Part shown: piece after piece, positions 8,712 through 55,136 of the stretch
Layout of the letters: each line of letters begins with the position of its first letter
How positions within the stretch are numbered: position 1 is the first letter of the stretch
Assembly: GCF_033568475.1 (NCBI RefSeq)
Contig: NC_133122.1
Location: forward strand, 8,949,201 to 9,013,200
Length of the DNA stretch: 64,000 nt
Direction: 5' to 3'
Source: Henckelia pumila
Lineage: Eukaryota; Streptophyta; Magnoliopsida; Lamiales; Gesneriaceae
The notes under the pieces: model-generated
Databases searched by the model: none
What the model saw: only the letters and a program-made list of their open reading frames with translations
Told to the model about the DNA's origin: nothing
Translations under genes and position numbers: made by a program

Positions 8712-8717
8712 TTTTTA

Positions 8718-14635: not shown

Positions 14636-14643
14636 TATAAATA
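14636..14643 (+). promoter_or_regulatory. TATA box of the copia A LTR promoter
   Basis: TATAAATA is kept at the same LTR position in all copies (36565-36572, 33588-33595, 44217-44224). It drives the element transcript, so everything downstream in the LTR is expected in the RNA. Confidence 0.7.
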
Positions 14644-15034: not shown

Positions 15035-15106
15035 CGGTTGATACCCATACCATGGAAACGTTCCATGAAAAAATTTTTAAACTTCCGCTGCACCGGGTAT
15101 CAATCG
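15035..15106 (+). other. U5 nested stem-loop just before the primer site
   Basis: An outer stem pairs CGGTTGATACCC (15035-15046) with GGGTATCAATCG (15095-15106), with one G-U pair. Inside it CATGGAA pairs with TTCCATG around an ACG loop (15051-15067). In copia B and solo LTR C the inner arms read TATGGAA and TTCCATA, a paired change. Confidence 0.7.
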
Positions 15107-15140
15107 TAATTGGTCTGGGAACTCGCAAGTTTTCCAACAG

Positions 15141-15153
15141 TGGTATCAGAGCC
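15141..15153 (+). other. primer-binding site of copia A
   Basis: TGGTATCAGAGCC, complementary to the 3' end of initiator Met-tRNA, starts two bases after the LTR end. Identical in copia B at 37064. Confidence 0.9.
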
Positions 15154-15268
15154 AGGTTGCTCAGATCAATCGATTGAATTAATCAATTGTACAAAATTTT
15201 TGAGTCTCGGTTTTTGAAACAAAATAAATATTTTTAATAAAAAAATTTTTTTTTTCCGGGGGCGAAAC

Positions 15269-15587
15269 CCGGGCAGCGATTGGATCGCTGCCCGGAAGGG
15301 GCAGCGATGGTCGCTGCCCCCAGGGGCGGCGCACGGCGCCGCCCAAAGGGGGCGCACGGCGCCGCCCAGGGCGGCGACCGTCGCCGCCCAGGGCAGCGCA
15401 CGGCGCTGCCCAGGGCAGCGCTGTGCGCTGCCCAGCGCAGCGCTGGGCGCTGCGCAGGGCAGCGCTCGGCGCCGCCCAGCGGCGGCGCCAGGCGCCGCCA
15501 GGGCAGCAAGCGTTGCTGCCCTAAGGGGGCAGCCGTGCTGCCCCGGCCCGCGCCCCGGGTGCGGGCCAACCCGGGAGTGTCCCGGGT
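15269..15587 (+). repeat. GC-rich tandem stem-loop array in copia A leader
   Basis: About a dozen consecutive inverted repeats with arms of 8-12 bp, mostly 3-base loops and about 2-base linkers. Unit 1: 15269-15280/15284-15295. Unit 2: 15298-15307/15311-15320. Then 15324-15344, an imperfect unit 15348-15367, 15369-15389, 15391-15411, 15413-15433, 15435-15455, 15457-15477 (one mismatch), 15481-15499, 15501-15521, 15526-15544, and two larger ones at 15545-15567 and 15569-15587. Arms differ between units but stay complementary. It lies in the untranslated leader, about 130 bases after the primer site. Confidence 0.85.
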
Positions 15588-15814
15588 GGCCCGCGGGAAA
15601 AATTAATATTTTATTAAAAATTAATTTTAATATGTTAAAATTTTATTTTTGGACGGTCAAAAATTGTTTTTGATTGGTTCAAGAGATTTCGGATCGAATT
15701 GTTTCGAGTCCGTAAATTTTAAAATTGATTTTGGATAAATTTGAATTTTTGGAAAATTTTAATATTTTATCCGTAAATTGAATTTTGAAATCAATTATTT
15801 TGGTACAATTGATG

Positions 15815-15961
15815 ATAAGATATGATCTTATGATATATTGAGTAAAATATGATTTTATTTGTAAAATTGGATTTTATAGATAAAATATGATTTTATTTGA
15901 TATGGAGATAAAATATGATTTTATATGTGAAATGTGATTTTATATATAAATATGATTTTAT
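15815..15961 (+). repeat. AT-rich tandem stem-loop array in copia A leader
   Basis: Seven units of the form ATAAAAT-ATG-ATTTTAT start at 15815, 15842, 15861, 15880, 15908, 15927 and about 15946. The first reads ATAAGAT-ATG-ATCTTAT, so a G-C pair replaces an A-T pair. Others differ by G-U-type pairs. Copia B has the same array at 37618-37765. Confidence 0.75.
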
Positions 15962-16650
15962 CTTGTTTAAATTTGAATTGCCACAGCATGTTATCCAATA
16001 AATTAATTTTGAATTAAATGTTATTGGATAAGGATGATCGATTGCCATGACCAATTTTGTAGGTGTATGTTAGGAATTTACATTTTGTCTTTATTGTTGT
16101 TGGTTTTATTAATGGGCCTGGTTTATGGCCCGATATGAATGTCATATGTAATAAAAGTGGGCTTGGTTTATAGCCCGTTCCCACCCCCTAAAAATGTATC
16201 CCCTACTTGTCATTGTTATTTATTGTAAATACATTAGATTTAGTGGGAGATCAAGATTTGAAGATGGTGGGCCCAGCAGACAATGAAGACTGAAGAAATG
16301 TAAATTGGAAGCATATGTAATAGGATTGCATTTGCATACTGCATATTACCTAGGATTGGACTAAGACCCGTGAATTGGCAACCACGGGTCAATTAGAAAT
16401 GGAATCGATCATCCTATATAATATGTGATATTATGATTGTATGCATGTTTAGACATAAATTGCGTGAATCCGGCAATGCATGCAATAAATTAAATATGAT
16501 GAGACAAATATTTTTATAAATAAAATCCCTCATTTTAAATATGATTTAAAATTTATATCAAGATAAATAAAGGAAATTTACAATATTGTTTAAATGTTCC
16601 TACCTTCCATCAACGGTCAATGTATGTGATGCTACCCGCGGATACGGTCC

Positions 16651-16937
16651 GGCTCATATTATTGGGGGGGCCCGTCCGTCGGAAAGCTGTACATTGGATC
16701 AGACAAATGTTGTAAGTTGGGTGGAACTCCCATGGGATCGGCTCATATTATTGGGGGATCCACATTGGCGACCGTCTATCACAACTTAATATTGATGGGT
16801 CATCTTGACATGTCACTTTAAACGGCGTCATATTATTGGGCCCTTATTGGACATGAGAGTAAACACATGGGGGTTGCTTTCGGAAGCAATTGGGCTCTAC
16901 CTTTTGAGAATTATGGTTGGCTGATATTATTCGGGAC
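16651..16937 (+). repeat. four dispersed copies of a GGCTCATATTATTGGG motif in the leader
   Basis: Copies begin at 16651, 16740, 16824 (GGCGTCATATTATTGGG) and 16919 (GGCTGATATTATTCGGG), spaced 84-95 bases. Copia B has them at 38454, 38542, 38625 and 38718. They lie in non-coding leader between the AT array and the ORF. No function is known to me. Confidence 0.7.
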
Positions 16938-17125
16938 CATAAGTTTGTCAATTGGACTCCATGTTCTCACTAAGGAAAAAGTTTCCCGTTTTCACTAGAG
17001 GGTGGTGAAATCGTTAAAATAGTGGGAGTGAGATTCATAAAATTAAATTCGCCTATTTTATGTCTTAGTAAATTGTTTAAACAATCATTGATATATGTCT
17101 GTTTTCCTTTTCAGTATTTCATACA

Positions 17126-20100
17126 ATGAATTCGCGAAATCCTTTATTCTCGATCCTCGAAACAAAACAAGCTGACTGGCGCCAACTATACGGAATGGTT
17201 CCGGAAGTTGAAGATTGTCTTAACTTCGGAGAAAATCTCTACGTGTTAGAGAAAGCACCTCCGAAGGAAGCACCAGCTGACATAAGTCCGGAGGAATTGG
17301 CCAAACTTGATGCATGGTGTGACCATGACATCAAGACCAAATGCTATATGCAAGCCTCGATGTCTGATGAACTCCAGAGGCGATTTGAGGACACGGTGAA
17401 TGCTGCTGACATTCACGCGCAACTCAAGGAACTTTTTGGGGCTCATCGAGGGCTGAAAGGTTCTCTACGTTAAGGAGTTGATGACGTGCCGCATGCGTGA
17501 AGGGACTTCGGTCCGTGTGATCATGGGGTACGATGATTTGGCTCATACAGAAGTTAGCGACCCATGATTTGGTGTTGGAGCATGAACTCAATGTGGACTT
17601 GCTGCTTCTATCTATTCCTTCTTCATTTGATGGATTCGTGATAAATTTTAATATGAACAAGATAGAGGGCACCCTTGAAGAGATGGTCAATATGCTCGTT
17701 ACATATGAATCCACACTTAAGAAGGGATAAGCCAGCTTTCTTGGTGGGCTCCTCATCTTCTGCTAAGAAGGGGCCAAGTATGAAGGGCAAGAAACGTTCT
17801 GCCCAACCCAAGAAAGTGGAACCCGAGAAGAAGCAAAAGACAAAGGCTTCAAACAATGGAAAATCCAAGGATGTTTGCCATTACTACTTGCAAGAAGCCG
17901 GGTCATTGGAAGCGCAACTGCAAGTAGTATCTTGAGCAGTTAGGAACTGCAAAGGGTATGTTCTATATCGAAATAAACATGTCACTTAATACAACTTCTT
18001 GGGTATTGGATACCAGATGTGGATCTCACATTTGCAATGATTTGCAGGTGATGACAATAATCGCAGGCTTAGAATGGGTGAGACCCAGCTGAGGCTCGGG
18101 AATGGTATCCAGAGTTGGAAAGCCCCCCCCCCTTTTAACGCGGCCCCCCCCCCCCCCCCCATTTTTGGAGATGTTTTGGGTTACGATTTTGGCCAGACTG
18201 GTATTAAATTATTGTTGAGAGATGTTTTATTTGTGCCAGAGTTAATTAAAAACATTTATTTCCTATTTCTATGCTGTGATAGTAATGGTTATTCTTGTAA
18301 TTTTGTGAATGGGATTTGCACATAATTATACAAGAATGAATGTTTAATTGGAAAATGGACCATTGAAAACGAATCTATACAAGTTTAAAACTAAAAGACG
18401 TCCCAGTGAGAAGTGATATTGACAAACCGGCGCGACAACAAACAAAAGGAAACACGATAAGTCAAAACCCGGCAAACCTTTGGCACGCTACGACTATGGT
18501 CATATTTCCTCAAAGGAGGATGAACAAGTTAGTGGGAGAGGTGCATGTTGATATGTCTGATATTAACTCTCTACCTACTTTGTGTAGCCTGCCTAAAAGG
18601 GAAAATGACTAAATTCTCCTTTTAAGGGAAAGCCTGAACCGTAAGTCAAAATCCTGTTGGCTATTGATCCATACAGATGTTTGTGGTCCCAGTTAGAGTA
18701 GGGACTCAAACATGGCCACACCTACTTCATTACCTTTACTGATGATTATTCAAGGTATGGGTATTAAATTTATATTTAATGAAATGATAAGTCTGAAGCA
18801 TTTGAAAAGTTCAAAGAATTCAAGGCTGAAGTTGAAAACAAGCTAGGTAAAAAGTATTAAAGCACTTCGTATGCGGATCGAGAGTTGGGAGTAAAAAAAA
18901 ACTTAGAGTACCGAGTTTTTGGACTATCACTAAAAGAGAATGGGCATTCACCTCTCAGTGGACGTCCTCCTATGACACCACAGCTTAATGGTGTATCGGT
19001 AGGGTCGTAATCATGAACTTTGTTGGACATGGTTCGATCATATTGATTGAGCCTTCACTGAGCTTCCACCTTCGTATTTAGGGAGCTATGCGCTTGAAAC
19101 GGCGGTATTGAGTTGTTGAACAACGTCCACACTAAAGCAGTGGACAAAACACCAGTACGAGGTTTATGGAATGGCCCAAAGGCCCTAAGTATTCGTACTT
19201 GAGGATTGGGGATGTCCTGGCCTTACGTGAAGCGGACAGTGGGAGATTAAGTTGGATAGGTCCGAATCCTGCTTATGTTATTTTGTAGAAAAAAAAGGTA
19301 TCCGAAGAATTCAATCAGGATATTATTGTCTATTATCCTGCTGAAACAAAGGTGTTTGTTTCAAGGAATGCCACCTTCTTAGAGAAGGAGTTTCTTATTG
19401 GATTAGAAAGGCGAGATGATGGAACTCGAAGAAGTTGCTGAGAAGAACCCGAAATACAAAAATAAGCGATCACCACACCTCGGCAACCATTGCTTGGACA
19501 CGCCTATGCACCTAGAAGAAATCCGAGAGGACTTCGTAGACCTCCAGTTCGATATGGTCCTTCATCTGTGAAGAGGGTTCAAGATGAACCCGACATTGGA
19601 TGTGATCCAAGAAGCTTCAAGGAAGCAATTTCTGATGCGGATTCCGAATTTATTGTCTTGAAGCTATGCAGGTCTGAATGGGATTCCGATGCATACTAAC
19701 CAAGTCTGGTTCTTTAGTGGAGCCTCACCGATGGATATTGTGGCCAATAGGGTGTAACTGGCATCTGACAAAAGAAAGGCTTGGCTACTGATGGTAAGAT
19801 ATTGACTTACAAGGCGCGATGGTGGCGAAAGGTTATACTCAAAGGCAAGGAGTGTTGACTTATGATGCGAAACGCTTTTCAACCAGGTTCGCAATGTTCG
19901 AAGTGCCATAAGAACCATAATTGCCATAGCTGACATGGTATAGCGTAATGAGATATGATGCAGATGGATGTGAAGACTGTTGTTAGTGTGTGTATGTGTG
20001 GGAAGCGTTTCTTAATGGAGACATTAAGAATAAGAAATATATATAGAAGTCAAGCCTAGAGGGCGTACACATCCATGGGGAAGCGATCATAAGGTATGCA

Positions 20101-21249
20101 AGCTTCAGAGATCAATTTATGGTCTAAAACAAGCATCAAGAAGTTGGAACCAGAAATTTGAGGAAACAATTAAAGACTTTGGTTTCATCAAGAACCCGGA
20201 GGAACTTTGCGTGTACAAGAAAATAGTTAAGGATGCGGTGACATTCCTTAGTACTTTATGTTGATGACATCCTACTCATTGGGAATGATGTAGGGATGTT
20301 GCAGTCAACAAAGATATGGTTATCAGGTAGATTTTCGATGAAGGATTTGGGTGAGGCATCCTACATTCTTGTGATTCAGATCTATAGGGATAGATCTAAG
20401 AGACTGATAGGACTCACTCAATCAACCTACATCGATTACCATATTGAAACGGTTTTCAATGGATGGGTCCAAGAGAGGACATCTACCATGTGTCATGGAG
20501 TTTCTCTATCCAAGTCTATGTGTCCCAAGACTGATGCAGAGATAGAGAATATGACACATGTACCATATGCGTCAGCTATAGGTAGTATCATTTATGGGAT
20601 GATATCTACCAGACCGGTGGTAGCATTTGCTCTGAGTGTCTCGAGCAGATATCAGTCTAATCCTGGTCAGATGCATTGGAAAGCCATGAAGGACATTCTT
20701 AAGTACTTGCGAAGGACTAAGAATATGTTCATGGTTTCTTGGAGGACGAGAACTCAAACTGGAAGGCTATACCGACTCTAGCTTCCAAAGTGATGTGGAT
20801 GACTCGAAGTCAACCTCTGGATTTGTGTTCATGCTCAATGGCGGTGCTGTCTCTTGGAAGAGAATTCCAAGCAGGACACCACAGCGGGATTCCACCACTG
20901 AGGCTGAATACATTGCATCATCCGCTGCTGCTAAAGAGGCCGTTTGGATGAGGAATTTCGTCCAAGAGTTGGGCGTCATTCCTGAATTTGTTGGTCCAGT
21001 CCCGGTGTACTGCGACAACACGGGTGCCGTTTGCTCAAGCAAAGGAACCAAGGTCTCATCAAAGATCCAAACACGTACTGAGGAAATACCACATAATCCG
21101 GGAGATTGTGGAAAGAGGAGACATCAGTGTCGAACGAAGTGGCCTCTGCAGACAATATCTGTGATCCACTTACTAAGCCTTTGCCAGGACCTTTGTTTGA
21201 CAAACATCGCGAAGCAATGGGTCTACGTAGTATGACTAGTTGGCTATAG
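17126..21249 (+). pseudogene. copia A gag-pol, multiply frameshifted
   Basis: Starts MNSRNPLFSIL at 17126 as in copia B and ends at the same TAG (21247-21249). In broken frames it shows the gag N-terminus, a shifted CCHC region near 17880, the protease (DTR in place of DTG near 18010), integrase pieces at 18406-19200, RT pieces including a split YVDD near 20255, and RNase H at 20795-21100. Compared with copia B there are dozens of one-base insertions and two C-runs at 18123-18132 and 18144-18160. Damage is densest from 18.0 to 20.1 kb. It cannot encode a polyprotein as written; part of the damage may be sequencing error. Confidence 0.9.
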
Positions 21250-21262
21250 GGCAAGTGGGAGA

Positions 21263-23187
21263 TGTAAGAGTGGGTGCCCAGTGAGCCAACTGTGTGGCTA
21301 TGGGCTTTGTTGACTCTTTGTATAAACAATCTTTTGTTTAATATTCTTTACACTTTTATGGCAATGACTTTATATTACTTCATATTGTTATATTGTGATA
21401 TACTATTGTTGTTTTGATAAAGACCTTGAATATACTATAGTGTATGTAAGATGTAGTAGAACATGGAGATGTCTATCATGAAATACATCTTATAGTCACT
21501 GTATATTCTAAAACCGTTCCTAGTCGATTGAGCCGTCCGATAATAAGGATAAGGATCGATCGAGTTTGAGACTAGCATTTGCGATGCGGAGTACCACGTT
21601 TCATTGGTAGGGAACATGGAGATGTTCGAAGCATGCAAATGGATATTAATAGGATGAATAGTCGAACTACCCTATCCGGACTTTCCAAGTGGTTATCACT
21701 TATCGAGTGGATAAAGTCCGCGGTTTTGGTTGTACACCATTAGTCCTTACGACTTGAAACATCATGGAGACTCTATATGCTAGTACTGTGCTTTGACTCG
21801 TTTACCGACTCTGAGGGGTTCATCAGGTGTCGAGATTGGGTACAGTTACGACACATATAGGAGTCAATGCATTGTTGTCAAGGATTCACCACATACTTGC
21901 GAGTGTGGATATCCTATGCGATCTGAGGAGATATTAGTGTGACAAATCTCTGGCCAGAGTACTTGATGTGATTTAAGAAATGGTTTCTTAGTAGCACATG
22001 CGATGTCACTAATTTGATCTTCAAGATGTATTGCATAGTTATCGGAATCTTGAGCGACTCTCGATATACCCAATGGTTGTTGATTCGATCGGGATAGTAT
22101 GGGGGATGGGTATAATAAAGGGGCGACCGTAACTGATATCGTCTAACCAAAATCTACTGGTTCTTGTAGGCACTATCAGTGATACCTAGGGAACTTCAAT
22201 GGGGCGATGTTGCTAGGAACGCTCTTTAACCATGATTCGTTCTGGGCACGTCGGAAAAAGTGTTATGTTCCGGTAGTCACAAGGAGGTCGAGTTGTGAGC
22301 CCACGGCTAGCTGTATCCCTGAACCATATGAGGGTTCACACAGTGTAATGGAGTTTTAATCCCCGTTGAAGATAGTTTAAAATTTAAAGATGGTAAATTT
22401 AATGAACTAAGGAGTTGGACTTCTTAAATAAGAGTTAAAGACGAAGTAGGATTTTCCTAAAATTGACATTAGCGGATGGACAATTTTGGAAAACCACTGA
22501 ATTCGGATTCAGTAAAATTTATTTTGACTTTAAAATGTGCAGAAATGGTTTCTGTGCACATTGGTGAAATCAGTTAATCAATCGGAGTCACGATGAATTT
22601 TATATTAATTTCTGAACGAGCGGGCTTTGCTTGTCGGGCCCCAGCTTATGACTAATGGGCCCTAAGGTGTTAGTGGCCTGCATTATAAATAAGTTAATTA
22701 AGTACAGAAATTACACACAACAGGTCATAATTGTGCGACAGAGCAAAAATCGAACCCTAGTCTCGCTCTCAACAAATCGGCCGAACCCTCCCCCTCTGCC
22801 TGAGAAAATTCCGGTCTGTGATTTTGAATCGCAGTAAGGAATAACGAATCAAATTCGTGTATTCTCTTCGCAGAAAACTTCTGATAGATTTTCTAGTGCA
22901 ATCTATCAGAGGGATTAAACCTCTGTTCGAGTACCTGATTGAAGGCGATCATCGGTTCCAGGGAGAGACAACAAGAGCAGAATTGTTCTGTTGGTGTCCA
23001 TTAATCTCGTTGCGAGATTTGAGGTAAAATTTATTTAATTGTTATTTAAATTTTACACACACACGTAATTCAATCGATGAACGGTTGATACCCATACCAT
23101 GAAAACGTTCCATGAAAAAATTTTTAAACTTCCGCTGCACCGGGTATCAATCGTAATTGGTCTGGGAACTCGCAAAGTTTTCCAACA
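21263..23187 (+). repeat. 3' LTR of copia A
   Basis: 1925 bp. Nearly identical to the 5' LTR except in 22030-22480, which carries many small insertions, for example around the diverged block 22096-22145. The flanks return to near identity, so the indel cluster is local. Confidence 0.95.
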
Positions 23188-34073: not shown

Positions 34074-34583
34074 TGATATTCCTATTTTTTTTCCCAATGT
34101 TCCTCCTACTCCTCTTAATCACTTTTCTTTTGATCGTTTTTCCGAGTACTTCAACCGCCTCGAAAACACCATTGCAAGCAACCATGCCCAGTCAACTGCT
34201 ACTTTGACCAAGATGAGTTCTCGGGTCACTACCTCTTTAGACGAGTTGACCTCTCGTGTTTCTTCCTTGGAGACGCGTTTTGATCACTACTTATCTCATG
34301 CACCGTCACGGAATGAAGATGACTCTTAGATTTTATTTTTATTTGCATTTAAGTTGTAATTTTAAATTTAAATGTAATATTTAGGTTGTTTAATAAAATT
34401 AGTTTGTTCAAAGTTTTATTATCTCTTTTTCATTTATTGATCTTTTTTGATTATCTCAAAAAAGGGAGAATAAGATTGGTTAAATTAATTATGTTGTTTA
34501 ATTGAGAGGGAGTTATTTATTTAAATGTTTATGCTATTTTAATGCATATTTATTTATCATATTTAACCAAGTTTTGTGATCAT

Positions 34584-34598
34584 AAAAAAGGGGGAGAT
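34584..34598 (+). other. polypurine tract before the Sirevirus-like 3' LTR
   Basis: AAAAAAGGGGGAGAT directly precedes the LTR start TGTTATGCC at 34599. A second tract, AAAAAAGGGAGA, lies at 34458-34469. It primes plus-strand DNA synthesis. Confidence 0.75.
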
Positions 34599-35203
34599 TG
34601 TTATGCCTTAAACACATACAAATCTAGTATTGTGAGATTAATGTTTTTAATACATTAACAAGTCTCAAAAATTATGTTTTGATGATTACAAAACTAGGTT
34701 AAGTGTTACTAATGATTTAAATTGAGAAAATGCAGATATTAATTTTTCGTGTTAGAAAAATACCAAAGAATCAAAGATCAAAATTGATGGATTAAAATTG
34801 AAGAACAAATCAAGAGTAACAATTTTTGAATTACAGAGTTCGGATGGTCCGAAGTATTTCCAGACTATTTTATTGTTTTGGAACCAGTTCGGATGCTACA
34901 AAGAAGCAGTTCGGACGATCCGAAGACCCGATCAGACGTTTCAATCTCTTTACGACGATTGACAAGATTTGTCAAGAGACTTTGCTCGACAAGGGATTTA
35001 ATGCAGCCAATCGGATGGTCCGATCTTAAGTTCGGATGATCCAAACAGTTCCACAGCCGTAAAAATTTGAATTTGAATCAGTACAGTTCGGAAGCTCCAA
35101 AGACAGGATCGGATGATCCGATCTGGCCCGTTTCAACACTATAAATAGAGGCATTCCGAGGCCAATTGAAGACACAACTCAAGCATTCATCCTCTCATCC
35201 TCT
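34599..35203 (+). repeat. 3' LTR of the Sirevirus-like element, truncated by copia B
   Basis: Starts TGTTATGCCTTAAAC. A TATA box is at 35140-35147, preceded by seven GTTCGGA-NNN-TCC-type palindromes from 34838 to 35123. About 55 bp downstream of the TATA box the LTR is cut by copia B. Confidence 0.8.
34838..35147 (+). promoter_or_regulatory. palindrome cluster and TATA box in the Sirevirus-like LTR
   Basis: Seven units, from GTTCGGATGGTCCGAAG (34838) to GATCGGATGATCCGATC (35107-35123); three have one decayed arm. TATAAATA follows at 35140-35147. The motif is the one seen in gypsy family P LTRs, although this element is a copia. Confidence 0.75.
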
Positions 35204-37062
35204 TGTAAGAGTGGGTGCCCAGTGAGCCAACTGTGTGGCTATGGGCTTTGATGACTCTTTGTATAAACAATCTTTTGTTTAATATTATTTACACTTTTAT
35301 GGCAATGACTTTATATTACTTCATATTGTTATATTGTGATATACTATTGTTGTTTTGATAAAGACCTTGAATATACTATAGTGTATGTAAGATGTGGTAG
35401 AACATGGAGATGTCTATCATGAAATACATCTTATAGTCACTGTATGTTCTAAAACCGTTCCTAGTCGATTGAGCCGTCCGATAATAAGGATAAGGATCGC
35501 TCGAGTTTGAGACTAGCATTTGCGATGCGGAGTACCACGTTTCATTGGTAGGGAACATAGAGATGTTCGAAGCATGCAAATGGATATTCATAGGATGAAT
35601 AATCGAACTACCCTATCCGGACTTTCCAAGTGGTTATCACTTATCGAGTGGATAAAGTCCGCGGTTTTGGTTGTACACCATTAGTCCTTACAACTTGAAA
35701 CATCATGGAGACTCTATATGCTAGTGCTGTGTTTTGACTCGTTTACCGACTCTATGGGGTCATCAGGTGTCGAGATTGGGTACAGTTACGACACATATAG
35801 GAGTCAATGCATTGTTGTCAAGGATTCACCACATACTTGCGAGTGTGGATATCCTATGCGATCTGAGGAGATATTAGTGTGACGAATCTCTGGCCAGAGT
35901 ACTTGATGTGATTTAAGAAATGGTTTCTTAGTAGCACATGCGATGTCACTAATTTGATCTTCAAGATGTATTGCATAGTTATCGAATCTTGAGCGACTCT
36001 CGATATACCAATGGTTGTTGATTCGATCGGGATATATGGATGAAGGGACCGTACTGTACGCTAACCAAAATCTACTGGTTCTTGTAGGCACTATCAGTGA
36101 TACCTAGGGAATCATGAGGCGATGTTGCTAGGCGCTTTACCATGATTCGTTGGGCAAGTCGGAAAGTGTTGTTCCGAGTCACAAGGAGTTGTGAGCCCAC
36201 GGCTAGCTGTATCCCTGAACCATTGAGGGTCACACAGTGTAATGGAGTTTTAATCCCCGTTGAGATAGTTAAATTTAAAGAGTTAAATTTAATGAACTAA
36301 GGAGTTGGACTTCTTAAATAAGAGTAAGGGAGTAGGATTTCCTAAAATGACATAGGGATGGACATTTTTGGAAACCACTGAATTCGGATTCAGGAAAATT
36401 TATTTTGACTTTAAAATGTGCAGAAATGGTTTCTGTGCACATTGGTGAAATCAGTTCATCAATCGGAGTCACGATGAATTTTATATTAATTTCTGAACGA
36501 GCGGGCTTTGCTTGTCGGGCCCCAGCTTATGATTAATGGGCCCTAAGGTGTTAGTGGCCTGCATTATAAATAAGTTATTTCAGTACAGAAATTACACACA
36601 ACAGGTCATAATTTTTGAGAGCAAAAATCGAAAACCCTAGTCTCTCTAAAAGAAATTTCGGTCGACCCCTCCCCCTCTGCCCGAGAAAATTCCGGTCTGT
36701 GATTTTGAATCGCGGTCAGGAATAACGAATCAGATTCGTTTAATCTCTTCGCAGAAAACTTCTGATAGATTTTCTAGTGCAATCTATCAGAGGGATTTAA
36801 ACCTCTGTTCGTGGACCTGATTGAAGGAGTTCATCGGTTCCAGGGAGAGACAACAAGAGCAGATCAAATCTGTTGGTGTCCATTAATCTCGTTGCGAGAT
36901 TGGAGGTAAAATTTAATAACTGTTATTTAAATTTTACACACACAATAATTTAATCGTTGAACGGTTGATACCCACACTATGGAATTGTTCCATAACAAAA
37001 TTTTTAAACTTCCGCTGCACCGGGTATCAATCGTGATTGATCTGACCGCCAGTTTTCCAACA
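35204..37062 (+). repeat. 5' LTR of copia B (subtype of copia A)
   Basis: 1859 bp. Shares with copia A the start TGTAAGAG, CAACTGTGTGGC, AAAACCGTTCC and GAACGAGCGGGC. TATA box 36565-36572; 11-bp inverted repeat 36761-36771/36781-36791; donor-like site at 36904-36907; U5 stem-loop 36962-37033 with inner arms TATGGAA/TTCCATA. Confidence 0.95.
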
Positions 37063-37063
37063 G

Positions 37064-37076
37064 TGGTATCAGAGCC
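37064..37076 (+). other. primer-binding site of copia B
   Basis: TGGTATCAGAGCC two bases after the LTR end; complementary to initiator Met-tRNA. Confidence 0.9.
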
Positions 37077-37192
37077 AGGTTGCTCAGATCAAACGATTAA
37101 ATTAATCAATTGTACAAAATTTTTGAGTCTCGGTTTTTGAAACAAAATAAATATTTTTAAATAAAAAAAAAAAAAAATTTTCGGGGCAAAAC

Positions 37193-37408
37193 CCGGGCAG
37201 CGATTGGATCGCTGCCCGGTGGGGCAGCAATTGTTGCTGCCCCGGGCGGCACACGGCGCCGCCCAAAGGGGGCGACCGTCGCCGCCCAGGGCGGCGCACG
37301 GCGCCGCCCAGGGCAGCGCACGGCACTGCCCTAAGGGGGCAGCCGGGCTGCCCCCGGCCCGCGCCCCGGGTGCGGGCCGGCCCGGGAGTGTCCCGGGCAG
37401 CCCGCGGG
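37193..37408 (+). repeat. GC-rich tandem stem-loop array in copia B leader
   Basis: Same start and end as in copia A, but about seven units instead of twelve. Unit 1 at 37193-37219 is identical. Unit 2 (37221-37243) has GGGGCAGCAA/TTGCTGCCCC where copia A has GGGGCAGCGA/TCGCTGCCCC. The last stem has GCCCGGG/CCCGGGC where copia A has ACCCGGG/CCCGGGT. Two units carry single mismatches. Confidence 0.85.
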
Positions 37409-37617
37409 AAAAATTATATTTTTATTAATTTTAATATTTAAAATTTTATTTTTGGTCCGGTCAAAAATTGTTTTTGATTGGTTCACGAGATTTCGGATCG
37501 AATTGTTCGAGTCCGTAAATTTTAAAATTGATTTTGGATAAATTTGAATTTTTGGAAAATTTTAATATTTTATCCGTAAATTGAATTTTGAAATCAATTA
37601 TTTTGGTACAATTGATG

Positions 37618-37765
37618 ATAAGATATGATCTTATGATATATTAAGTAAAATATGATTTTATTTGTAAAATTGGATTTTATAGATAAAATATGATTTTATT
37701 TGATATAGAGATAAAATATGATTTTATATGTGAAATGAGATTTTATATATAAAATATGATTTTAT
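37618..37765 (+). repeat. AT-rich tandem stem-loop array in copia B leader
   Basis: Seven ATAAAAT-ATG-ATTTTAT-type units in the same order as in copia A, beginning with the ATAAGAT/ATCTTAT unit at 37618. Confidence 0.75.
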
Positions 37766-38453
37766 CTTGTTTAAATTTGAATTGCCACAGCATGTTATCC
37801 AATAAATTAATTTTGAATTAAATGTTATTGGATAAGGATGATCGATTGCCATGACCAATTTTGTGGGTGTATGTTAGGAATTTACATTTTGTCTTTATTA
37901 TTGTTGGTTTTATTAATGGGCCTGGTTTATGGCCCGATATGAATGTCATATGTAATAAAAGTGGGCTTGGTTTATAGCCCGTTCCCACCCCCTAAAAATG
38001 TATCCCCTACTTGTCATTGTTATTTATTGTAAATACATTAGATTTAGTGGGAGATCAAGATTTGAAGATGGTGGGCCCAGCAGACAATGAAGACTGAAGA
38101 AATGTAAATTGGAAGCATATGTAATAGGATTGCATTTGCATACTGCATATTACCTAGGATTGGACTAAGACCCGTGATTGGCAACCACGGGTCAATTAGA
38201 AATGGAATCGATCATCCTATATAATATGTGATATTATGATTGTATGCATGTTTAGACATAAATTGCGTGAATCCGGCAATGCATGCAATAAATTAAATAT
38301 GATGAGACAAATATTTTTATAATTAAAAATCCCTCATTTTAAATATGATTTAAAATTTATATCAAGATAAATAAAGGAAATTTAAATATTGTTTAAATGT
38401 TCCTACCTTCCATCAACGGTCAATGTATGTGATGATACCCGCGGATACGGTCC

Positions 38454-38737
38454 GGCTCATATTATTGGGGGGGCCCGTCCGTCGGAAAGCTGTACATTGG
38501 ATCGACAAATGTTGTAAGTTGGGTGGAACTCCCATGGGATCGGCTCATATTATTGGGGGATCCACATGGCGACCGTCCATCACAACTTAATATTGATGGG
38601 TCATCTTGACATGTCACTTTAAACGGCGTCATATTATTGGGCCCTTATTGGACATGAGGTAAACACATGGGGGTTGCTTTGGAAGCAATTGGGCTCTACC
38701 TTTTGAGAATTATGGTTGGCTGATATTATTCGGGACC
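38454..38737 (+). repeat. four copies of a CATATTATTGGG motif in copia B leader
   Basis: Copies at 38454, 38542, 38625 and 38718 match those of copia A in sequence and spacing. They lie between the AT array and the ORF. Confidence 0.7.
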
Positions 38738-38923
38738 ATAAGTTTGTCAATTGGACTCCATGTTCTCACTAAGGAAAAAGTTTCCCGTTTTCACTAGAGG
38801 GTGGTGAAATCGTTAAAATAGTGGGAGTGAGATTCATAAAATTAAATTCGCCTATTTTATGTCTTAGTAAATTGTTAAACAATCATTGATATATGTCTGT
38901 TTTCCTTTTCAGTATTTCATACA

Positions 38924-41900
38924 ATGAATTCGCGAAATCCTTTATTCTCGATCCTCGAACAAAACAAGCTGACTGGCGCCAACTATACGGAATGGTTCCG
39001 GAAGTTGAAGATTGTCTTAACTTCGGAGAAAATGCTCTACGTGTTAGAGAAAGCACCTCCGAAGGAAGCACCAGCTGACATAAGTCCGGAGGAATTGGCC
39101 AAACTTGATGCATGGTGTGACCATGACATCAAGACCAAATGCTATATGCAAGCCTCGATGTCTGATGAACTCCAGAGGCGATTTGAGGACACGGTGAATG
39201 CTGCTGACATTCACGCGCAACTCAAGGAACTTTTTGGGGCTCAGTCGAGGGCTGAAAGGTTCTCTACTGTTAAGGAGTTGATGACGTGCCGCATGCGTGA
39301 AGGGACTTCGGTCCGTGATCATGGGGTACGAGTGATTTGGCTCATACAGAAGTTAGCGACCCTTGATTTGGTGTTGGAGCATGAACTCAATGTGGACTTG
39401 CTGCTTCTATCTCTTCCTTCTTCATTTGATGGATTCGTGATAAATTTTAATATGAACAAGATAGAGGCCACCCTTGAAGAGATGGTCAATATGCTCGTTA
39501 CATATGAATCCACACTTAAGAAGGATAAGCCAGCTTTCTTGGTGGGCTCCTCATCTTCTGCTAAGACGGGGCCAAGTATGAAGGGCAAGAAACGTTCTGC
39601 CCCACCCAAGAAAGTGGAACCCGAGAAGAAGCAAAAGACAAAGGCTTCAAACAATGGAAAATCCAAGGATGTTTGCCATTACTGCAAGAAGCCGGGTCAT
39701 TGGAAGCGCAACTGCAAGGAGTATCTTGAGCAGTTAGGAACTGCAAAGGGTATGTTCTATATCGAAATAAACATGTCACTTAATACAACTTCTTGGGTAT
39801 TGGATACCGGATGTGGATCTCACATTTGCAATGATTTGCAGGTGATGACAAGAAGTCGCAGGCTTAGAATGGGTAAGACCCAGCTGAGGCTCGGGAATGG
39901 TTCCAGAGTTGAAGCTACGGCCATTGGAGATGTTTGTTTGATTTTGCAGAATGGTTTTAAATTATTGTTGAGAGATGTTTTATTTGTGCCAGATTTAATT
40001 AAAAACATTATTTCTATTTCTATGCTTGATAGAGATGGTTATTCTTGTAATTTTGTGAATGGGATTTGCAATATTTACAAGAATGAATGTTTAATTGGAA
40101 ATGGACAACTTGAAAACGATCTATACAATTTAAAACTAAAAGACGTTCCAGTGAATTGTATTGACAAACCGGCGACAACAAACAAAAGGAAAATCGATAG
40201 TCAAAACCCGGCAAACCTTTGGCACGCTAGACTAGGTCATATTTCCTCAAGGAGGATGAACAAGCTAGTGGGAGAGGGCATGTTTGATATGTCTGATATT
40301 AACTCTCTACCTACTTGTGAATCCTGCCTAAAAGGAAAAATGACTAAATCTCCTTTTAAGGGGAAACCTGAGCGTAGTCAAAATCTGTTGGATTTGATCC
40401 ATACAGATGTTTGTGGTCCATTTAGAGTAGGGACTCAACATGGCCACACCTACTTCATTACCTTTACTGATGATTATTCAAGGTATGGGTATTTATATTT
40501 AATGAAATATAAGTCTGAAGCATTTGAAAAGTTCAAAGAATTCAGGGCTGAAGTAGAAAACAAGCTAGGTAAAAGTATTAAAGCACTTCGATCGGATCGA
40601 GGTGGAGAATACTTGAGTACCGAGTTTTTGGACTATCTGAAAGAGAATGGGATTCTCTCTCAGTGGACTCCTCCTATGACACCACAGCTTAATGGTGTAT
40701 CGGAGCGTCGTAATCAAACTTTGTTGGACATGGTTCGATCTATGATGAGCTTCACTGAGCTTCCACCTTCGTTTTGGGGCTATGCGCTTAAAACGGCGGT
40801 ATTGTTGTTGAACAACGTCCACACTAAAGCAGTGGACAAAACACCATACGAGTTATGGAATGGCAAAGCTCCTAAGTATTCGTACTTGAGGATTTGGGGA
40901 TGTCCTGCTTACGTGAAGCGGACAGTGGGAGATAAGTTGGATAGTCGATCCAGCTTATGTTATTTTGTAGGGTATCCGAAAAATTCAATCGGATATTATT
41001 TCTATTATCCTGCTGAAACAAAGGTGTTTGTTTCTAGGAATGCCACCTTCTTGGAGAAGGAGTTCTTATTGGATAAGAAAGGCGAGATGATGGAACTCGA
41101 AGAAGTTCGAGAAGAACCCAAAATACAAAATAACGATCCTACACCTCAGGAACCATTGCTGGACACGCCTGCACCTAGAAGATCCGAAAGGACTTCTAGA
41201 CCTCCAGTTCGATATGGTCTTCTTCTTGAAGGGGATCAAGATGAACCCGACATTGGATGTGATCCAAGAAACTTCAAGGAAGCAATTTCTGATGCGGATT
41301 CGAATTTATGGCTTGAAGCTATGCAGTCAGAATTGGATTCGATGCATACAAACCAAGTTTGGTCTTTAGTAGATCCTCCCGATGGAATTGTTCCGATAGG
41401 GTGTAAATGGATCTACAAAAGAAAGCTTGGGCCTGATGGTAAGGTATTGACCTACAAGGCGCGATTGGTGGCTAAAGGTTATACTCAAAGGCAAGGAGTT
41501 GACTATGATGAAACCTTTTCACCAGTTGCAATTTTCAAGTCCATAAGAATCCTGATTGCCATAGCTGCATGGTATGACTATGAGATATGGCAAATGGATG
41601 TGAAGACTGCTTTTCTTAATGGAGACATTAAGGAAGAAATCTATATGAAGCAGCCTGAGGGGTTCACATCCATGGGAAGCGAGCATAAGGTATGCAAGCT
41701 TCAGAGATCAATTTATGGTCTAAAACAAGCATCAAGAAGTTGGAACCAGAAATTTGATGAAACAATAAAAGATTTTGGTTTCATCAAGAACCCGGAGGAA
41801 CCGTGCGTGTACAAGAAAGTAGTTAAGGATGCGGTGACATTCTTAGTACTTTATGTTGATGACATCCTACTCATTGGGAATGATGTAGGGATGTTGCAGT

Positions 41901-42838
41901 CAACAAAGATATGGTTATCAGGTAGATTTTCGATGAAGGATTTGGGAGAGGCATCCTACATTCTTGGGATACAGATCTATAGAGATAGGTCTAAGAGAAT
42001 GATAGGACTCACTCAATCAACCTACATCGATACCATATTGAAACGGTTTTCAATCGATGGGTCCAAAAGAGGACATCTACCCATGTGTCATGGAGTTTCT
42101 CTATCCAAGTCTATGTGTCCCAAGACTGATGAAGAGATAGAGAATATGACACATGTACCATATGCGTCAGCTATAGGTAGTATCATGTATGGGATGATAT
42201 CTACCAGACCGGATGTAGCATTTGCTCTGAGTGTCACGAGCAGATATTAGGCTAATTCTGGTCAAATGCATTGGAAAGCCGTGAAGGACATTCTTAAGTA
42301 CTTACGAAGGACTAAGAATATGTTCATGGTATATGGAGGACGAGATCTGAAATTGGAAGGCTATACCGACTCTAGCTTCCAAAGTGACGTGGATGACTCG
42401 AAGTCAACCTCTGGATTTGTGTTCATGCTCAATGGCGGTGCTGTCTCTTGGAAGAGTTCCAAGCAGGACACCACAGCGGATTCCACCACTGAGGCTGAAT
42501 ACATTGCAGCATCAGCTGCTGCTAAAGAGGCCGTTTGGATGAGGAAGTTCGTCCAAGAGTTGGGCGTCATTCCTGAATTTGTTGGTCCAGTCCCGGTGTA
42601 CTGTGACAACACGGGTGCCGTTGCTCAAGCAAAGGAACCAAGGTCTCATCAAAGATCCAAACACGTACTGAGGAAATACCACATCATCCGGGAGATTGTG
42701 GAAAGAGGAGACATCACTGTCGAACGAGTGGCCTCTGCAGACAATATCGCTGATCCGCTTACTAAGCCCTTGCCAGGATCATTGTTTGACAAACATCGCG
42801 AAGCAATGGGTCTACGTAGTATGACTAGTTGGCTATAG
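38924..42838 (+). CDS. copia B gag-pol polyprotein, one nonsense codon
   Basis: One frame of 1304 codons, broken only by TAG at 42248-42250 (copia A has CAG there). Gag covers residues 1-250 with a UBN2-like capsid region; zinc knuckle C251-C254-H259-C264. Protease DTG at 294-296. GAG-pre-integrase around NLWHARLGHIS with H434/H439/C465/C468. Integrase D495, D558 and E594 (SERRN). RT runs from about 806 with MDVKTAFLNGDI and YVDD at 977-980. RNase H is downstream of the stop: YTDSS, TEAEYIA, YCDNTG and ADPLTK. The ATG lies 11 bases after a splice-acceptor-like site. The single ORF order protease-integrase-RT-RNase H is Ty1/copia. It would make all but RNase H unless the stop is read through. 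Confidence 0.95.
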
Positions 42839-42852
42839 GGCAAGTGGGAGAT

Positions 42853-44716
42853 TGAAAGAGTGGGTGCCCAGTGAGCCAACTTGTGGCTATGGGCTTTGAT
42901 GACTCTTTGTACAAACGATCTTTTGTTTAATGTAATTTACACTTTTATTAATGGCAATGACTTTATCTTTCTTCATATTGTTATATTATGATATACTATT
43001 GTTGTTTTGATAAAGACCTTGAATATACTATAGTGTATGTAAGATGTGGTAGAACATGGGGATGTCTATCATGAAATACATCTTATAGTCACTGTATATT
43101 CTAAACTGTTCCTAGTCGATTGAGCCGTCCGATAATAAGGATAAGGATCGCTCGAGTTTGAGACTAGCATTTGCGATGCGGAGTACCACGTTTCATTGGT
43201 AGGGAACATGGAGATGTTCGAAGCATGCAAATGGATATTCATAGGATGAATAATCGAACTACCCTATCCGGACATTCCAAGTGGTTATCACTTATCGAGT
43301 GGATAAAGTCCGCGGTTTTGGTTGTACACCATTAGTCCTTACTACTTGAAACATCATGGAGACTCTATATGCTAGTACTGTGCTTTGACTCGTTTACCGA
43401 CTCTATGGGGGTCATCAGGTGTCGGGATTGGGTACAGTTACAACACATATAGGAGTAGATGCATTGTTGTCAAGGATTCACCACATACTTGCGAGTGTGG
43501 ATATCCTATGCGATCTGAGGAGATATTAGTGTGACGAATCTCTGGCCAGAGTACTTGATGTGATTTAAGAAATGGTTTCTTAGTAGCACATGCGATGTCA
43601 CTAATTTGATCTTCAAGATGTATTGCATAGTTATCGAATCTTGAGCGACTCTCGATATACCAATGGTTGTTGATTCGATCGGGATATATGGATGAAGGGA
43701 CCGTACTGTACGCTAACCAAAATCTACTGGTTCTTGTAGGCACTATCAGTGATACCTAGGGAATCATGGGGCGATGTTGCTAGGCGCTTTACCATGATTC
43801 GTTGGGCAAGTCGGAAATCGTTGTTCCGAGTCACAAGGAGTTGTGAGCCCACGGCTAGCTGTATCCCTGAACCATTGAGGGTCACACAGTGTAATGGAGT
43901 TTTAATCCCCGTTGAGATAGTTAAATTTAAAGAGTTAAATTTATTGAATAAAGAAGTTGGACTTCTTAAATAAGAGTAAGGGAGTAGGATTTCCTAAAAT
44001 GACATAGGGATGTACATTTTTGGAAACCACTGAATTCGGATTCAGAAAAATTTATCTTGACTTTAAAATGTGCAGAAATGGTTTCTGTGCACATTGGTAA
44101 AATCGGTTTATCAATCGGAGTCACGATGAATTTTATATTAATTTCTGAACATGCGGGCTTTGCTTGTCGGGCCTCAACTTATGACTAATGGGCCCTAAGG
44201 TGTTAGTGGTCTGCATTATAAATAAGTTATTGCAGTACAGAAATTACACACAGTTGGTCATAATTTTGAGAGACAGTTTTCGAAAAAAAACCCTAGCTCT
44301 CTCTAGAAATTCGGCCGCCCCTCCCTCTCTCTGTCAGAGATTTTCCGGTCTGTGATTTTGAATTGCAGACAGGATTAGCGAATCAAATTCGTTATTCTCT
44401 TCGCAGAAAACTTCTGATAGATTTTCTAGTGCAATCTATCAGAGGGATTAAACCTCCATTCGTGGACCTGATTGAAGGAAAGATTGTTCATCAGTTCCAG
44501 GGAGATACAAGAAGCGCAGAGAAATCTGTGTGGTGTCCAATAATCTCGCTTCGAGATTGAAGGTAAAATTTAATAATAGTTATTTAATTTTACACACACA
44601 AATAATTTAATCGTATGGTTGATACCCACACTATGGAATTGTTCCATACTAAAAATTTTAAACTTCCGCTGCACCGGGTATCAATCGTGATTGATCTGAA
44701 CGCCAGTTTTCCAACA
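42853..44716 (+). repeat. 3' LTR of copia B (subtype of solo LTR C)
   Basis: 1864 bp. Starts TGAAAGAG and has CAACTTGTGGC, a TTAATGGCAATGAC insertion, AAACTGTTCC and GAACATGCGGGC, all shared with solo LTR C and not with its own 5' LTR. TATA box 44217-44224. Confidence 0.95.
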
Positions 44717-45635
44717 CATATAAGCACATATATCATGCCGGATATCTCGGTCAGTACTTACGTACCTTTCTAAGGCAGATCCTAGAAGTTCCACTCTAGA
44801 TTCCAAGCCTAGCATCCCTTGCTACCAGTATACAATGCAAATACTCATGCATCACTATTTAAGTTCTAAAAGCCTTAACTAAGCTAGCAGATACTCCTAA
44901 ATAATTTAAGGAGACCAAAGCTATACTTGCGTCCGTCGTCAGCCCACTGATGGCGACTATCCCACAACTTTGGCACAACTCCTACTGCAGCTCCGCAGCT
45001 TCAAGTAAAGCTCCACTACTTGGACACCGCTCCGCTACTATGTTAGACACTGTCTGACTATACTAAAATATAATCCCTACTCCAAATCTAAAATAAGAGT
45101 ACCCAAAGCCCTAAAATAGAGCCACGTGGGCGAAGGAGAGGAATCAGGTGCAAATAACAAATGATCTCCTCGACCCATATTTATAGGCGCGGGTTCGGAC
45201 CGTCCGAACTGGAATTCGGACCGTCCGATCCTTGCATGCGTGACAAGTGTCACAGCCAACACTTCGGACCGTCCGTTCAGGACTTCGGATTGTCCGATCC
45301 CGATATTACGTCATCCATGACATCATCCTCTCGGACACCTGGCTGGGTACTGATCGGATCGTCCGATCATTGACTTCGGAGCGTCCGATCTTGATGATCC
45401 TCCGAACTCAATCGTGGCATCCGAACCCATCCAAGTTCGGATGGTCCGATCCTAGATCGGATCCTCCGATCTTGCTCGAGTTCGAAACCAACCGACCCAT
45501 TTCCGAGCGTCCTAGATCCATTTCCGGACTCCGTTAATCCATATAAAATTTCCTTAATCATGTTTTACTTAATCTAAAAATGATCTCTTGATTAATTACC
45601 CATTAATCACTAATTCTGGATACGGGTTACTACAT
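44717..45635 (-). repeat. family P gypsy LTR fragment
   Basis: Minus strand starts TGTAGTAACCCG at 45635 and follows the order of element E's LTR: ATTAATTAC-type start, palindrome cluster, TATA box, then GGATATCTCGGTCAGTA near 44740. The 3' part is cut by copia B at 44716. No coding frame of note. Confidence 0.8.
45178..45471 (-). promoter_or_regulatory. eight palindromes and TATA box of the family P LTR fragment
   Basis: Units run from GTTCGGACCGTCCGAAC (45193) to GATCGGATCCTCCGATC (45455-45471). On the minus strand they precede TATAAATA at 45178-45185. Central triplets vary (CCG, ATT, ATC, AGC, ATG) while arms are kept. Confidence 0.8.
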
Positions 45636-46660
45636 AAAGAACTATTTTCAGATCGTTCATCTCATATCTGCTCTGGAATATAAATTGTAGCTGAATTTGT
45701 GATTATCTCACACACTGTGGCATATTTACAATTCCATTCCTTCTGCTTCATCATTTAGCTTCCATTCTCTTAGCTTCAGCTCTTCTAACCCTATCTATGT
45801 ATTTCATAAAATGTTTCAGTCGTCAACATTTACTCATACATAGTCTCTGAATTCAAACCATGAATAACCAATTCAATATTGAACTTCTTAATCATCTACA
45901 ATTTAACGAATCATAGTAGGCTTTGCAAATCTAGAAATGCATTCTTCAGTAGTCAAATTGCTCTGCTTCTGATTGATATAATCTATTTTCTGGATATTCT
46001 TCTTTCTTGGCATAATATTCTTTTTCTCATCATTTCTATCTGCTGTGGCAAAGAACCATTAATCAAACTCTGTTCTAAGCACTTACCAACAAATCAACAT
46101 ATCTCTTTTCTTTTATAATTTCTTCATCATAATCTATCAGCTGATTGCTAGGTCTTGAATTGGATATACAATAAATCTGATACGACATTCATCTGTATCT
46201 TTCAAGAAATTTGAACAATTGATCAAGTTATTCAAACCAACTTCTACCTGCAATAACATCTATTAATTCGCTGATATACTATTCGGTTCAATCAAAGATA
46301 CTTCTTTCAGCTGAGCCATACAGTTCTGTTCAGTCTGACCATACAATTCTGTTCAGTCTGGGGTGCTTACGTCACCCAAAGAACACTGTTATTCAATTGG
46401 GGTGCTTACATCACCCGGAGAATCTTATAATAAAAGCAGTAAGAAATTCAAAAATTTACTTACAAATCGGTAAAAAATTCAAAAATTTACAAATCAGTAA
46501 ATCAGGTAGTTTCATTTCAAAAGTAGATCATGCTCACATACAATTCATCAAATCGTGAAATCAAGTAATTCATAATCATGCAATACTATAAATGCATGCA
46601 ACTCAATCTACCCCGCTCAGCTTCTGTCTCAGTCCAAGAAACTTACGCTCTGATACCACC
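45636..46660 (-). other. leader and non-coding interior of a family G element
   Basis: Minus strand: primer site TGGTATCAGAGC at 46648-46658 beside the LTR, then about 1 kb without gag or pol signatures. Two short repeats are visible: CAGTTCTGTTCAGTCTG-like (46320-46360) and GGGGTGCTTAC[AG]TCACCC (46360-46420). Cut at 45635 by the family P LTR. The lack of gag suggests deletion or a non-autonomous form. Confidence 0.55.
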
Positions 46661-53836: not shown

Positions 53837-55136
53837 TGTAGTGACCCTTACCCGGATCACCTACTAAACAGAACTTAGGCATGCAATTAACTTAATAAAA
53901 CAGATATCAGAATAAAACTACGGAAACCAATAACATTATACAATCCCAAGAAAAGGAATCTGTAATTATCCAATAATATACAACAAAATCGAATAGCTGT
54001 ATAAACCCAAACGACAGTAATAAAGCCTAGACGAAGCTCCAGCTGGCCAACCACTGACTAGCCCCTCCTGGATCCACCCTCCTCGTCCAATCGCAAACCT
54101 GCCCCATGGAATAGGGTGTCCAGAAAATACAGAGTACGAGACGTGAGCATACAACGCTCAGTGCGAGAGTATGAGTATACATGCATGCAAAGTGAACTCC
54201 CTATAGACTCGAGGTCAAGGATCAGATAACAGAGACAGACCGGGCCCTGGTATGTAGCACGCTGTGCCGTCGCTTCAGGAGGTGGCTCCCATACCGAGAT
54301 AACTGTGGATACGCCGGACCCAAATCGATGGAAGTCCATCCACTAACAGGATAGGGTACAACCCTATTACAGACATCTCGAAGGAGATACAGCAAGATGC
54401 AAATGAATGCAGCATAATATCATGGCATATAAATCATGCAGTCATATAATACATGCATACTCAGTCAGGATATCTCGAACAGTACTTTCGTACCTCAGAA
54501 CAGTGCAAGCTCTACCAACTCTAGGTCCACGCCTATAGTCTGCTCTACACTGCCAAATGATACCACTATCATCAAAGTGCTCTAAATGCCTTAACTAAGC
54601 TATTGCATACTCCTAAATATTTATAGGAAGCAAAAGCTATACCTTCGTCCGTCGTTAGCCCTTTGATGTCGATGCCTCCAGAACTTGGGCACAACTCCGC
54701 TACGACTATCGAACGCCTCTCCGACCTCCGGACCAAGCCTAAGAAGACTAGAACAGCTCGAATATGACTAGAAATAGAGAGGAAATCCGGAATTGGCAAG
54801 GAGAAATGAAGTCTCGGCCTTCTATTTATAGACAACGATCGGAGCCTCCGATCCTTGATCGGAACGTCCGAACCTCGATCGGAACGTCCGATCCTGCCAT
54901 CGGAGCTTCCGAAGATCCTGATCTGCCACGTGTCAAAATATCACTTGATGACTGCGGATAGGGGTGATCGGAGCCTCCGGTCCTGATCGGAGCTTCCGAT
55001 CCAGCCACACGTCATGGATGACGTAATATCATCGGTGCCTCCGATCGTCCCTTCGGAGCTTCCGATCCGTCCGATGCCTAATTGAATTAATTAGCATTAA
55101 TCCTTTAATTACTCAATTAGGGCACGGGCTACTACA
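53837..55136 (-). repeat. 3' LTR of element E
   Basis: Minus strand TGTAGTAGCCCGTGCCC...GGGTCACTACA. Eight palindromes (54837-55067) upstream of TATAAATA (54823-54830). Open frames at 54058-54339 and 54572-54835 repeat exactly in the other LTR and are not genes. Confidence 0.96.
54823..55067 (-). promoter_or_regulatory. palindrome array and TATA box, 3' LTR of E
   Basis: Units such as GATCGGAGCCTCCGATC, GATCGGAACGTCCGATC and GATCGGAGCTTCCGATC: 7-base arms around a variable 3-base centre. The nearest unit is six bases from the TATA box on the minus strand. Confidence 0.85.

Follow-up and report, generated by a model that had tools for sequence, protein, structure and literature searches.

Within the 64-kb window analysed here (the whole stretch of DNA, C3:8949201-9013200 of the genome), the same palindromic units lie upstream of the TATA box in LTRs of two retrotransposon superfamilies, Ty1/copia and Ty3/gypsy, which raises the question of how both came to carry them and what the units might do there. 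An earlier note on this DNA had placed clusters of GATCGGA-NNN-TCCGATC before TATAAATA in five LTRs, and these clusters are present: the window holds 28 copies of the exact core CGGANNNTCCG (CGGA-N3-TCCG), compared with a mean of 0.42 and a maximum of 3 in 100 dinucleotide-preserving shuffles, and 27 of the 28 sites fall within the five named clusters, with a single outlier at 30004. Arm spacings of N0, N1, N2, N4, N5, N6 and N7 gave 1, 2, 0, 1, 5, 2 and 0 sites in the window, respectively, versus 28 for N3. Among CGG-CCG pairs spaced N0 to N12, N5 occurred 37 times versus 2.7 in first-order simulations, with the next highest spacing reaching 13.

While the arms are kept and the centre is variable, as the note had described, its full GATCGGA arms proved too narrow a definition, the complete 17-mer GATCGGA-N3-TCCGATC being exact at 10 window sites. 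The more general form is W-TCGGA-N3-TCCGA-W, in which GATC is merely the commonest outer context. In 52 half-sites from 26 units (gyC excluded as the sister of gyD; units chosen at ≤1 mismatch in CGGA/TCCG), successive positions read G in 38, A in 34 or T in 18, T in 50, C in 49, and then G, G and A in 51 each. Since the CGGA letters were selection criteria, their constancy is by construction and the three outer positions alone are informative, the first being usually G or C, the second A or T and the third T. The heat-shock element (GAAnnTTC), which the note had likened to some units, was rejected because the constant part is TCGGA..TCCGA, as judged from the tabulated units.

The clusters are also rich in CpG, with observed/expected ratios of 1.30-2.01 versus 0.31-0.76 elsewhere in the same LTRs, and CpG islands are reported for Sireviruses in the accessible passages of PMC2829016. 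The units might therefore act as a CpG-rich, nucleosome-free patch rather than via one specific factor. However, CpG content alone requires neither CGGA-N3-TCCG nor the helical phase described below, and we consider this the least probable of the explanations weighed here.

Gypsy and copia LTRs carrying the units

The four gypsy LTRs, which the note had grouped as one family P, are related, but two of them (gyC and gyD) are the LTRs of a single element, while gyA and gyB are distinct LTRs. The chromovirus-type gyA (plus strand, approximate ends 7558-8716), which is related to the other three outside the units, is followed by a PBS-like stretch (by eye); its units at 7591-7650, one at 7591 with 1 mismatch and one at 7640 that is exact, precede a TATA box at 7660-7667. 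At the far end of this cluster lies a further palindrome, GATCGGA..TTCCGA at 7566-7582, whose centre measures four bases (by eye); it is perhaps a decayed unit. The truncated chromovirus-type gyB (minus strand, approximate ends 44717-45637) carries eight exact units at 45196-45468, arranged as four pairs 20-22 bp apart, with its minus-strand TATA box at 45178-45185.

The 3' LTR gyC (53837-55136) and the 5' LTR gyD (59753-61090) bound a minus-strand chromovirus-type element, and the target-site duplication GGCCA is found on both sides of the pair. A piecewise domain search of the gag-pol frame between them (55275-59687, minus strand) identified Retrotrans_gag, RVP_2, RVT_1, RNase H, Integrase_H2C2, SH3_Tf2-1 and a weak Chromo match, so that the gypsy domain order PR-RT-RH-INT is present; the Chromo match (E 2.2e-4, 21.5 bits versus a Pfam cut-off of 25.1) occupies the expected position after SH3_Tf2-1. 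Among the matches listed for the protease/RT piece (120 of 8000), identity over most of the query was led by Primulina eburnea (83% over 83%) and Dorcoceras hygrometricum (65-69%), and the top scores belonged to Tanacetum proteins. The plant itself is an angiosperm, perhaps a gesneriad. Eight units, one with a mismatch, lie in gyC at 54840-55064 (minus strand; TATA box at 54823-54830 on the same strand), and ten, three with a mismatch, lie in gyD at 60756-61018 (minus strand). The two LTRs differ by 16 mismatches over 1300 bases and one 38-bp indel, which corresponds to two palindromic units extra in gyD. Since sister LTRs are expected to be identical at insertion, this indel points to recent turnover of units.

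The copia LTR had been called Sirevirus-like, and its features bear this identity out. It begins after the Sirevirus polypurine tract AGGGGGAG followed by AT before the LTR's TG (tract and AT, 34589-34598, plus strand; junction 34589-34600), as defined in the accessible passages of PMC2829016; GGGGGAGATTG occurs once in the window. An inverted repeat flanks this junction (left arm 34552-34588, plus strand; right arm 34677-34713), with arms of 37 nt that are 78% complementary; their best local alignment spans 26 columns, with 22 identities. Together with the CGG-CCG motif before the TATA box, these features identify the LTR as the 5' part of a Sirevirus LTR (34599-35203, plus strand), truncated by another copia element that starts at ~35204. 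Its cluster (34841-35120, plus strand) comprises units at 34841, 34912, 35012, 35033 (1 mismatch), 35089 (1 mismatch) and 35110, with the TATA box at 35140-35147 and the nearest unit start at -30.

Two further Sirevirus characters bear on a fragment of this kind. Sirevirus elements carry at least eight copies of the repeated motif (RM) each, and the LTR fragment has six units at ≤1 mismatch, our counts covering this fragment and 760-base stretches of 30 fetched loci. The Sirevirus primer-binding site TATCAGAGC is placed after the 5' LTR, and the LTR here is a truncated fragment. As for gag, short frames between related LTRs at two loci match zf-CCHC (L175, E 3.6e-6; L174, E 0.0026, below the cut-off). 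Each frame also has a below-cut-off match to a coiled-coil protein; frames combining CCHC with a coiled-coil-like match would be expected of a Sirevirus gag, short of proving one.

The truncating copia element (35204-44716), of which a related copy lies at 13272-23187, is bordered by the Sirevirus LTR to the left and by a truncated gypsy LTR to the right. No target-site duplication was obvious by eye, and the junction is possibly recombinant.

Spacing and helical phase relative to the TATA box

A genome-wide motif scan, which the note had proposed, identified 140,037 sites of TCGGA-N3-TCCGA in the 884.7-Mb genome versus 262 for the reversed pattern, these being counts of copies rather than families in one genome. 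There was a strong excess before TATAAATA relative to reversed-pattern controls. Scans of viral contigs, screened by unit count and base composition, gave no recognisable plant LTR among the matches listed, and two further viral-contig loci held one exact unit each with no plant LTR recognised in ~800-900 bases of each.

In the window, TATAAATA starts 20 (gyA), 21 (gyB), 20 (gyD) and 30 bp (copia) downstream of the nearest unit start on the sense strand, and the unit-to-TATA stretch of gyC is identical to that of gyD. Genome-wide, units starting at -19 to -22 from TATAAATA gave 14,469 matches (both strands summed; reversed-pattern control, 1), while 251 (control, 5) were found at -23 to -28. 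The same alternation continued further upstream, with 2,537 matches (control, 0) at -29 to -32, 52 (control, 1) at -33 to -38 and 12,722 (control, 3) at -39 to -42, many of the last being second units behind a -20 unit. Per offset, in-phase positions were used ~98 times as often as out-of-phase positions, counting copies rather than families. Consistent with this pattern, 9 of 30 possible offsets were used among the 100 matches listed at 16-45 bp before the TATA box (lengths copied by hand). The centre length was equally restricted, with 10 N4 units at -20 to -23 genome-wide versus the 14,469 N3 units just before the TATA box. Pairs of units were found 17,831 times at 19 bp (control, 0) versus 34 times at 24 bp (control, 3).

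Of the 100 matches listed in the -23 to -28 bin, 80 (counted by eye) share the offset -25, which is out of phase by half a helical turn. These are mostly one recurrent sequence (for example, G000 C1:4953167-4953199) and represent a real exception to the phase.

The nearest unit was in phase in all 20 LTR representatives, which we chose ourselves and 12 of which came from rows already requiring a unit 16-45 bp before the TATA box. It lay at 20-22, 31-32 or 41-42 bp in the 15 gypsy or unassigned representatives and at 30-31 or 51 bp in the five copia representatives. Within these 20 LTRs, 56 of the 60 successive gaps shorter than 25 bp measured 19-22 bp, and the 58 gaps of at least 25 bp showed a period of ~10.6 bp that 0 of 3000 uniform draws reached. 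The best period depended on the method, being 10.0-10.25 bp for all distances versus 10.6 bp for successive longer gaps, and the 16 longer gaps of the copia representatives alone had no significant period (43% of draws reached it). Among the 30 copia loci, 28, mostly one close group, have at least one unit upstream of TATAAATA, and 27 of these keep the closest one in phase (-30, -31 or -51). The stretches fetched for L148 and L152 lack TATAAATA; neither these two nor L150 is among the representatives. L150 (G000:C2:126453152-126453389) is a copia LTR with two units at ≤1 mismatch, the nearest out of phase at -111, and is perhaps a decayed cluster.

Tandem slippage of a ~20-bp repeat could produce regular arrays as a mutational by-product, with the spacing reflecting duplication length rather than protein contacts. 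The 38-bp, two-unit indel between gyC and gyD and the range of 2-11 units per copia locus (one mismatch allowed) are what slippage would give, but it leaves unexplained both the ~10-bp steps to the TATA box and the period in the longer gaps. The spacers, moreover, are diverse in sequence while constant in length, 35 of 38 distinct ones being 9 bases long (copied by eye, among the matches listed). Slippage is thus already disfavoured, and we regard it as very improbable. Independence of the observations behind the phase rule may be limited, since chromoviruses share ancestry and the -20 position was possibly inherited in many families.

Ancestry of the copia and gypsy clusters

With the units masked, the alignment scores of the copia LTR with gyA, gyB, gyC and gyD were reached by 35, 18, 7 and 15 of 100 shuffles, respectively, whereas no shuffle of 100 reached the score in any of the six gypsy-gypsy pairs. 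Similarity between the superfamilies outside the units is therefore no better than in shuffles, in agreement with the note's premise that the two do not share LTR ancestry.

A search with the part of the Sirevirus LTR that precedes the cluster gave 1,624 first-look candidates, and all 40 that were scored matched. In the 30 copia loci that we fetched, comprising the window's own copy and 29 relatives, the following LTR always carried units (1-7 exact and 2-11 allowing one mismatch, in 760 bases each), which argues that the copia cluster is no peculiarity of this one locus. At L171 and L172 (G000:C1:1420648-1435805 and C1:805583-821057), unit-bearing LTR pairs lie ~15 kb apart around copia-type frames, most likely copia elements nested in gypsy elements.

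The note had offered capture or convergence on one dimeric host factor. A gain of gypsy DNA by the copia LTR at this locus was rejected, given the masked alignment at shuffle level and the units in 30 of 30 fetched copia loci. Convergence fits best, since a common half-site, a fixed arm spacing and a helical phase to the TATA box occur in otherwise dissimilar LTRs, and our best reading is that the copia and gypsy arrays probably arose independently or date back very far. An ancient capture of one unit keeps some probability. In that case, a single exchange between a chromovirus and a Sirevirus, through recombination or template switching, would have transferred a unit or short array that was later multiplied and retained, making the units homologous. 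The half-site and N3 are indeed common to both superfamilies here, while elsewhere a number of Sirevirus motifs are different (CGGTCTGACCG and AGCGGTASTACCGCT among them). Units also expand easily, two at a time in the indel between the sister LTRs, and the layouts overlap, with copia at -30/-31 and three gypsy representatives at -31/-32. However, similarity is confined to the units, the nearest unit lies at -20 to -22 in 10 of 15 gypsy representatives and in none of five copia representatives, and CGG-CCG motifs are already present in Sireviruses of other hosts, with N5 in 8 of the 12 published motifs. Taken together, these points make an old capture unlikely.

The three gypsy loci with the -31 layout (L158, L159 and L160) adjoin chromovirus-type pol pieces that match the gyC/gyD pol at 47-91%, while their LTRs align with the reference LTRs in short patches only; such a pattern would be expected if units were maintained while the LTRs around them changed fast. 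None of the reference LTRs matched L167 or L169, and the flank of L167 weakly resembles the gypsy protease piece.

Repeated cis-boxes before the TATA box have precedents in plant copia elements, as Tnt1 and Tto1 carry tandem promoter boxes that bind host factors. In being repeated and upstream of the TATA box these resemble the units here, but to our knowledge they are neither CGG-CCG palindromes nor common to both superfamilies.

The closest known counterparts are in Sireviruses. The accessible passages of Bousios et al. 2010 (PMC2829016) describe multicopy CGG-CCG palindromes (the RM) ahead of the TATA box of Sirevirus LTRs, with CpG islands and a suggested regulatory role, and call them Sirevirus-specific and absent from the 'classic' Ty1/copia elements compared. 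These motifs share with our units the palindromic, multicopy, CpG-rich character, the position and, in most published cases, the N5 spacing; the RM of HOPIE, CGGACCGTCCG, is identical to one of our exact sequences. In contrast with the RM as described in those passages, the units here also occur in Ty3/gypsy chromovirus-type LTRs and are helically phased to the TATA box. A maize Sirevirus palindrome, CACCGGACNNNGTCCGGTG, likewise has a CGGA-N3-TCCG core in the LTR cis-region, according to the accessible part of PMC10760457.

The Sirevirus half of the finding is thus already published, to judge from those passages of PMC2829016, a precedent absent from the earlier note, as were the phasing and the genome-wide scale. 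Among the titles, abstract starts and passages of open-access papers that were listed, the motif was nowhere described from gypsy LTRs. The unit in chromovirus-type LTRs, its helical phasing to the TATA box and the genome-scale numbers are apparently new.

A candidate dimeric factor and the hairpin alternative

We propose, with a probability of roughly 0.6, that the clusters are promoter-proximal site arrays for a sequence-specific host protein that would bind as a symmetric dimer and be shared by both superfamilies. Each unit would comprise two inverted half-sites, (G)WTCGGA, with CGG cores five bases apart and both read by one dimer. Dimers would recur every two helical turns (19-22 bp) on one face of the DNA that is fixed relative to the TATA box, with the nearest unit at about -20, -30, -40 or -50. 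The nearest dimer site would then end ~9, 20 or 30 bp upstream of the TATA box (40 bp in one copia group), next to TBP, and a stacked dimer complex beside TBP could drive or license LTR transcription. The chromoviruses (gypsy) and Sireviruses (copia) of this plant would both depend on the same factor, and selection would keep or rebuild units in both.

A fuller version of this proposal, to which we give somewhat short of even odds, is that one dimeric factor reading CGG-N5-CCG licenses both superfamilies, that the arrays were built independently and that Sirevirus motifs in monocots and eudicots rest on the same code.

LBD (LOB-domain) proteins, whose site contains CGGA, were considered as the factor. 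One relative, Ramosa2.1, has been solved (5ly0). The accessible part of PMC9504267 gives predicted sites only, and we put no name to the factor.

Proposed roles of Sirevirus palindromes in the accessible literature include both stress-factor sites and small-RNA-producing structure. Palindromes are described as small-RNA hot spots in maize Sireviruses, with the same palindrome in Helitrons, in the accessible passages of PMC10760457 (citing Bousios 2016) and PMC5311732. If the same applied here, the units would matter as stem-loops in 3' U3 RNA that feed small RNAs. RNA folding was extreme for gyB, gyC and gyD, with 78-92 of 8520 110-nt windows lower on either strand and z from -5.1 to -7.5 versus shuffles; by comparison, the accessible part of PMC10760457 describes maize Ty3 elements as generally lacking an obvious structure peak, so that three of the four gypsy clusters here, as strongly folding ones, differ from them. 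The copia cluster folded unremarkably (694 of 8520 windows lower in sense and 451 in antisense; z -2.4), as did gyA (z -2.0). Pairing between arms was in mild excess at the W position (18 of 26 units versus 13.9 expected for independent arms), as a hairpin would give, while the outermost position paired at chance (14 of 26 versus 13.3). Furthermore, hairpins predict neither the phase to the TATA box nor N3 over N4. We therefore rejected RNA hairpins as the sole reason for the units, on the outermost pairing and the ordinary folding of the copia cluster and gyA, and consider a primary silencing role improbable; hairpins may coexist as a side effect of the proposed binding sites.

Selective upkeep of units, which the dimer proposal would lead one to expect, received a mixed test in copia and is not clear. 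The arms differed more than the remaining sequence in all alignment sets but the widest of the five, where they differed less; we give this little weight, because the sequences compared also served to define the unit columns and the repeats align loosely. Differences in arms versus the rest were 0.042 versus 0.011 in the three closest copies, an excess that methylated-CpG decay would give. The corresponding values were 0.037 versus 0.013, 0.096 versus 0.039 and 0.142 versus 0.126 in three further sets, and 0.167 versus 0.201 (centres, 0.407) in the widest set of nine.

If the fuller version of the proposal is true, much of the genome's LTR load, as represented by the 140,037 sites, would answer to one switch. 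Were both superfamilies licensed by one host factor, it would give such genomes one point at which much of their LTR transcription is controlled, and conflict between host and elements would be likely to target it. The unit in chromovirus-type LTRs and the helical rule point to a protein complex, for whose identification they could provide a precise probe.

ACGT-type boxes (TGACG, CGTCA or CACGTG) lie among the units in 8 of the 20 representatives (gyB, gyD, L154, L161, L163, L164, L165 and L169) and represent a possible second input.
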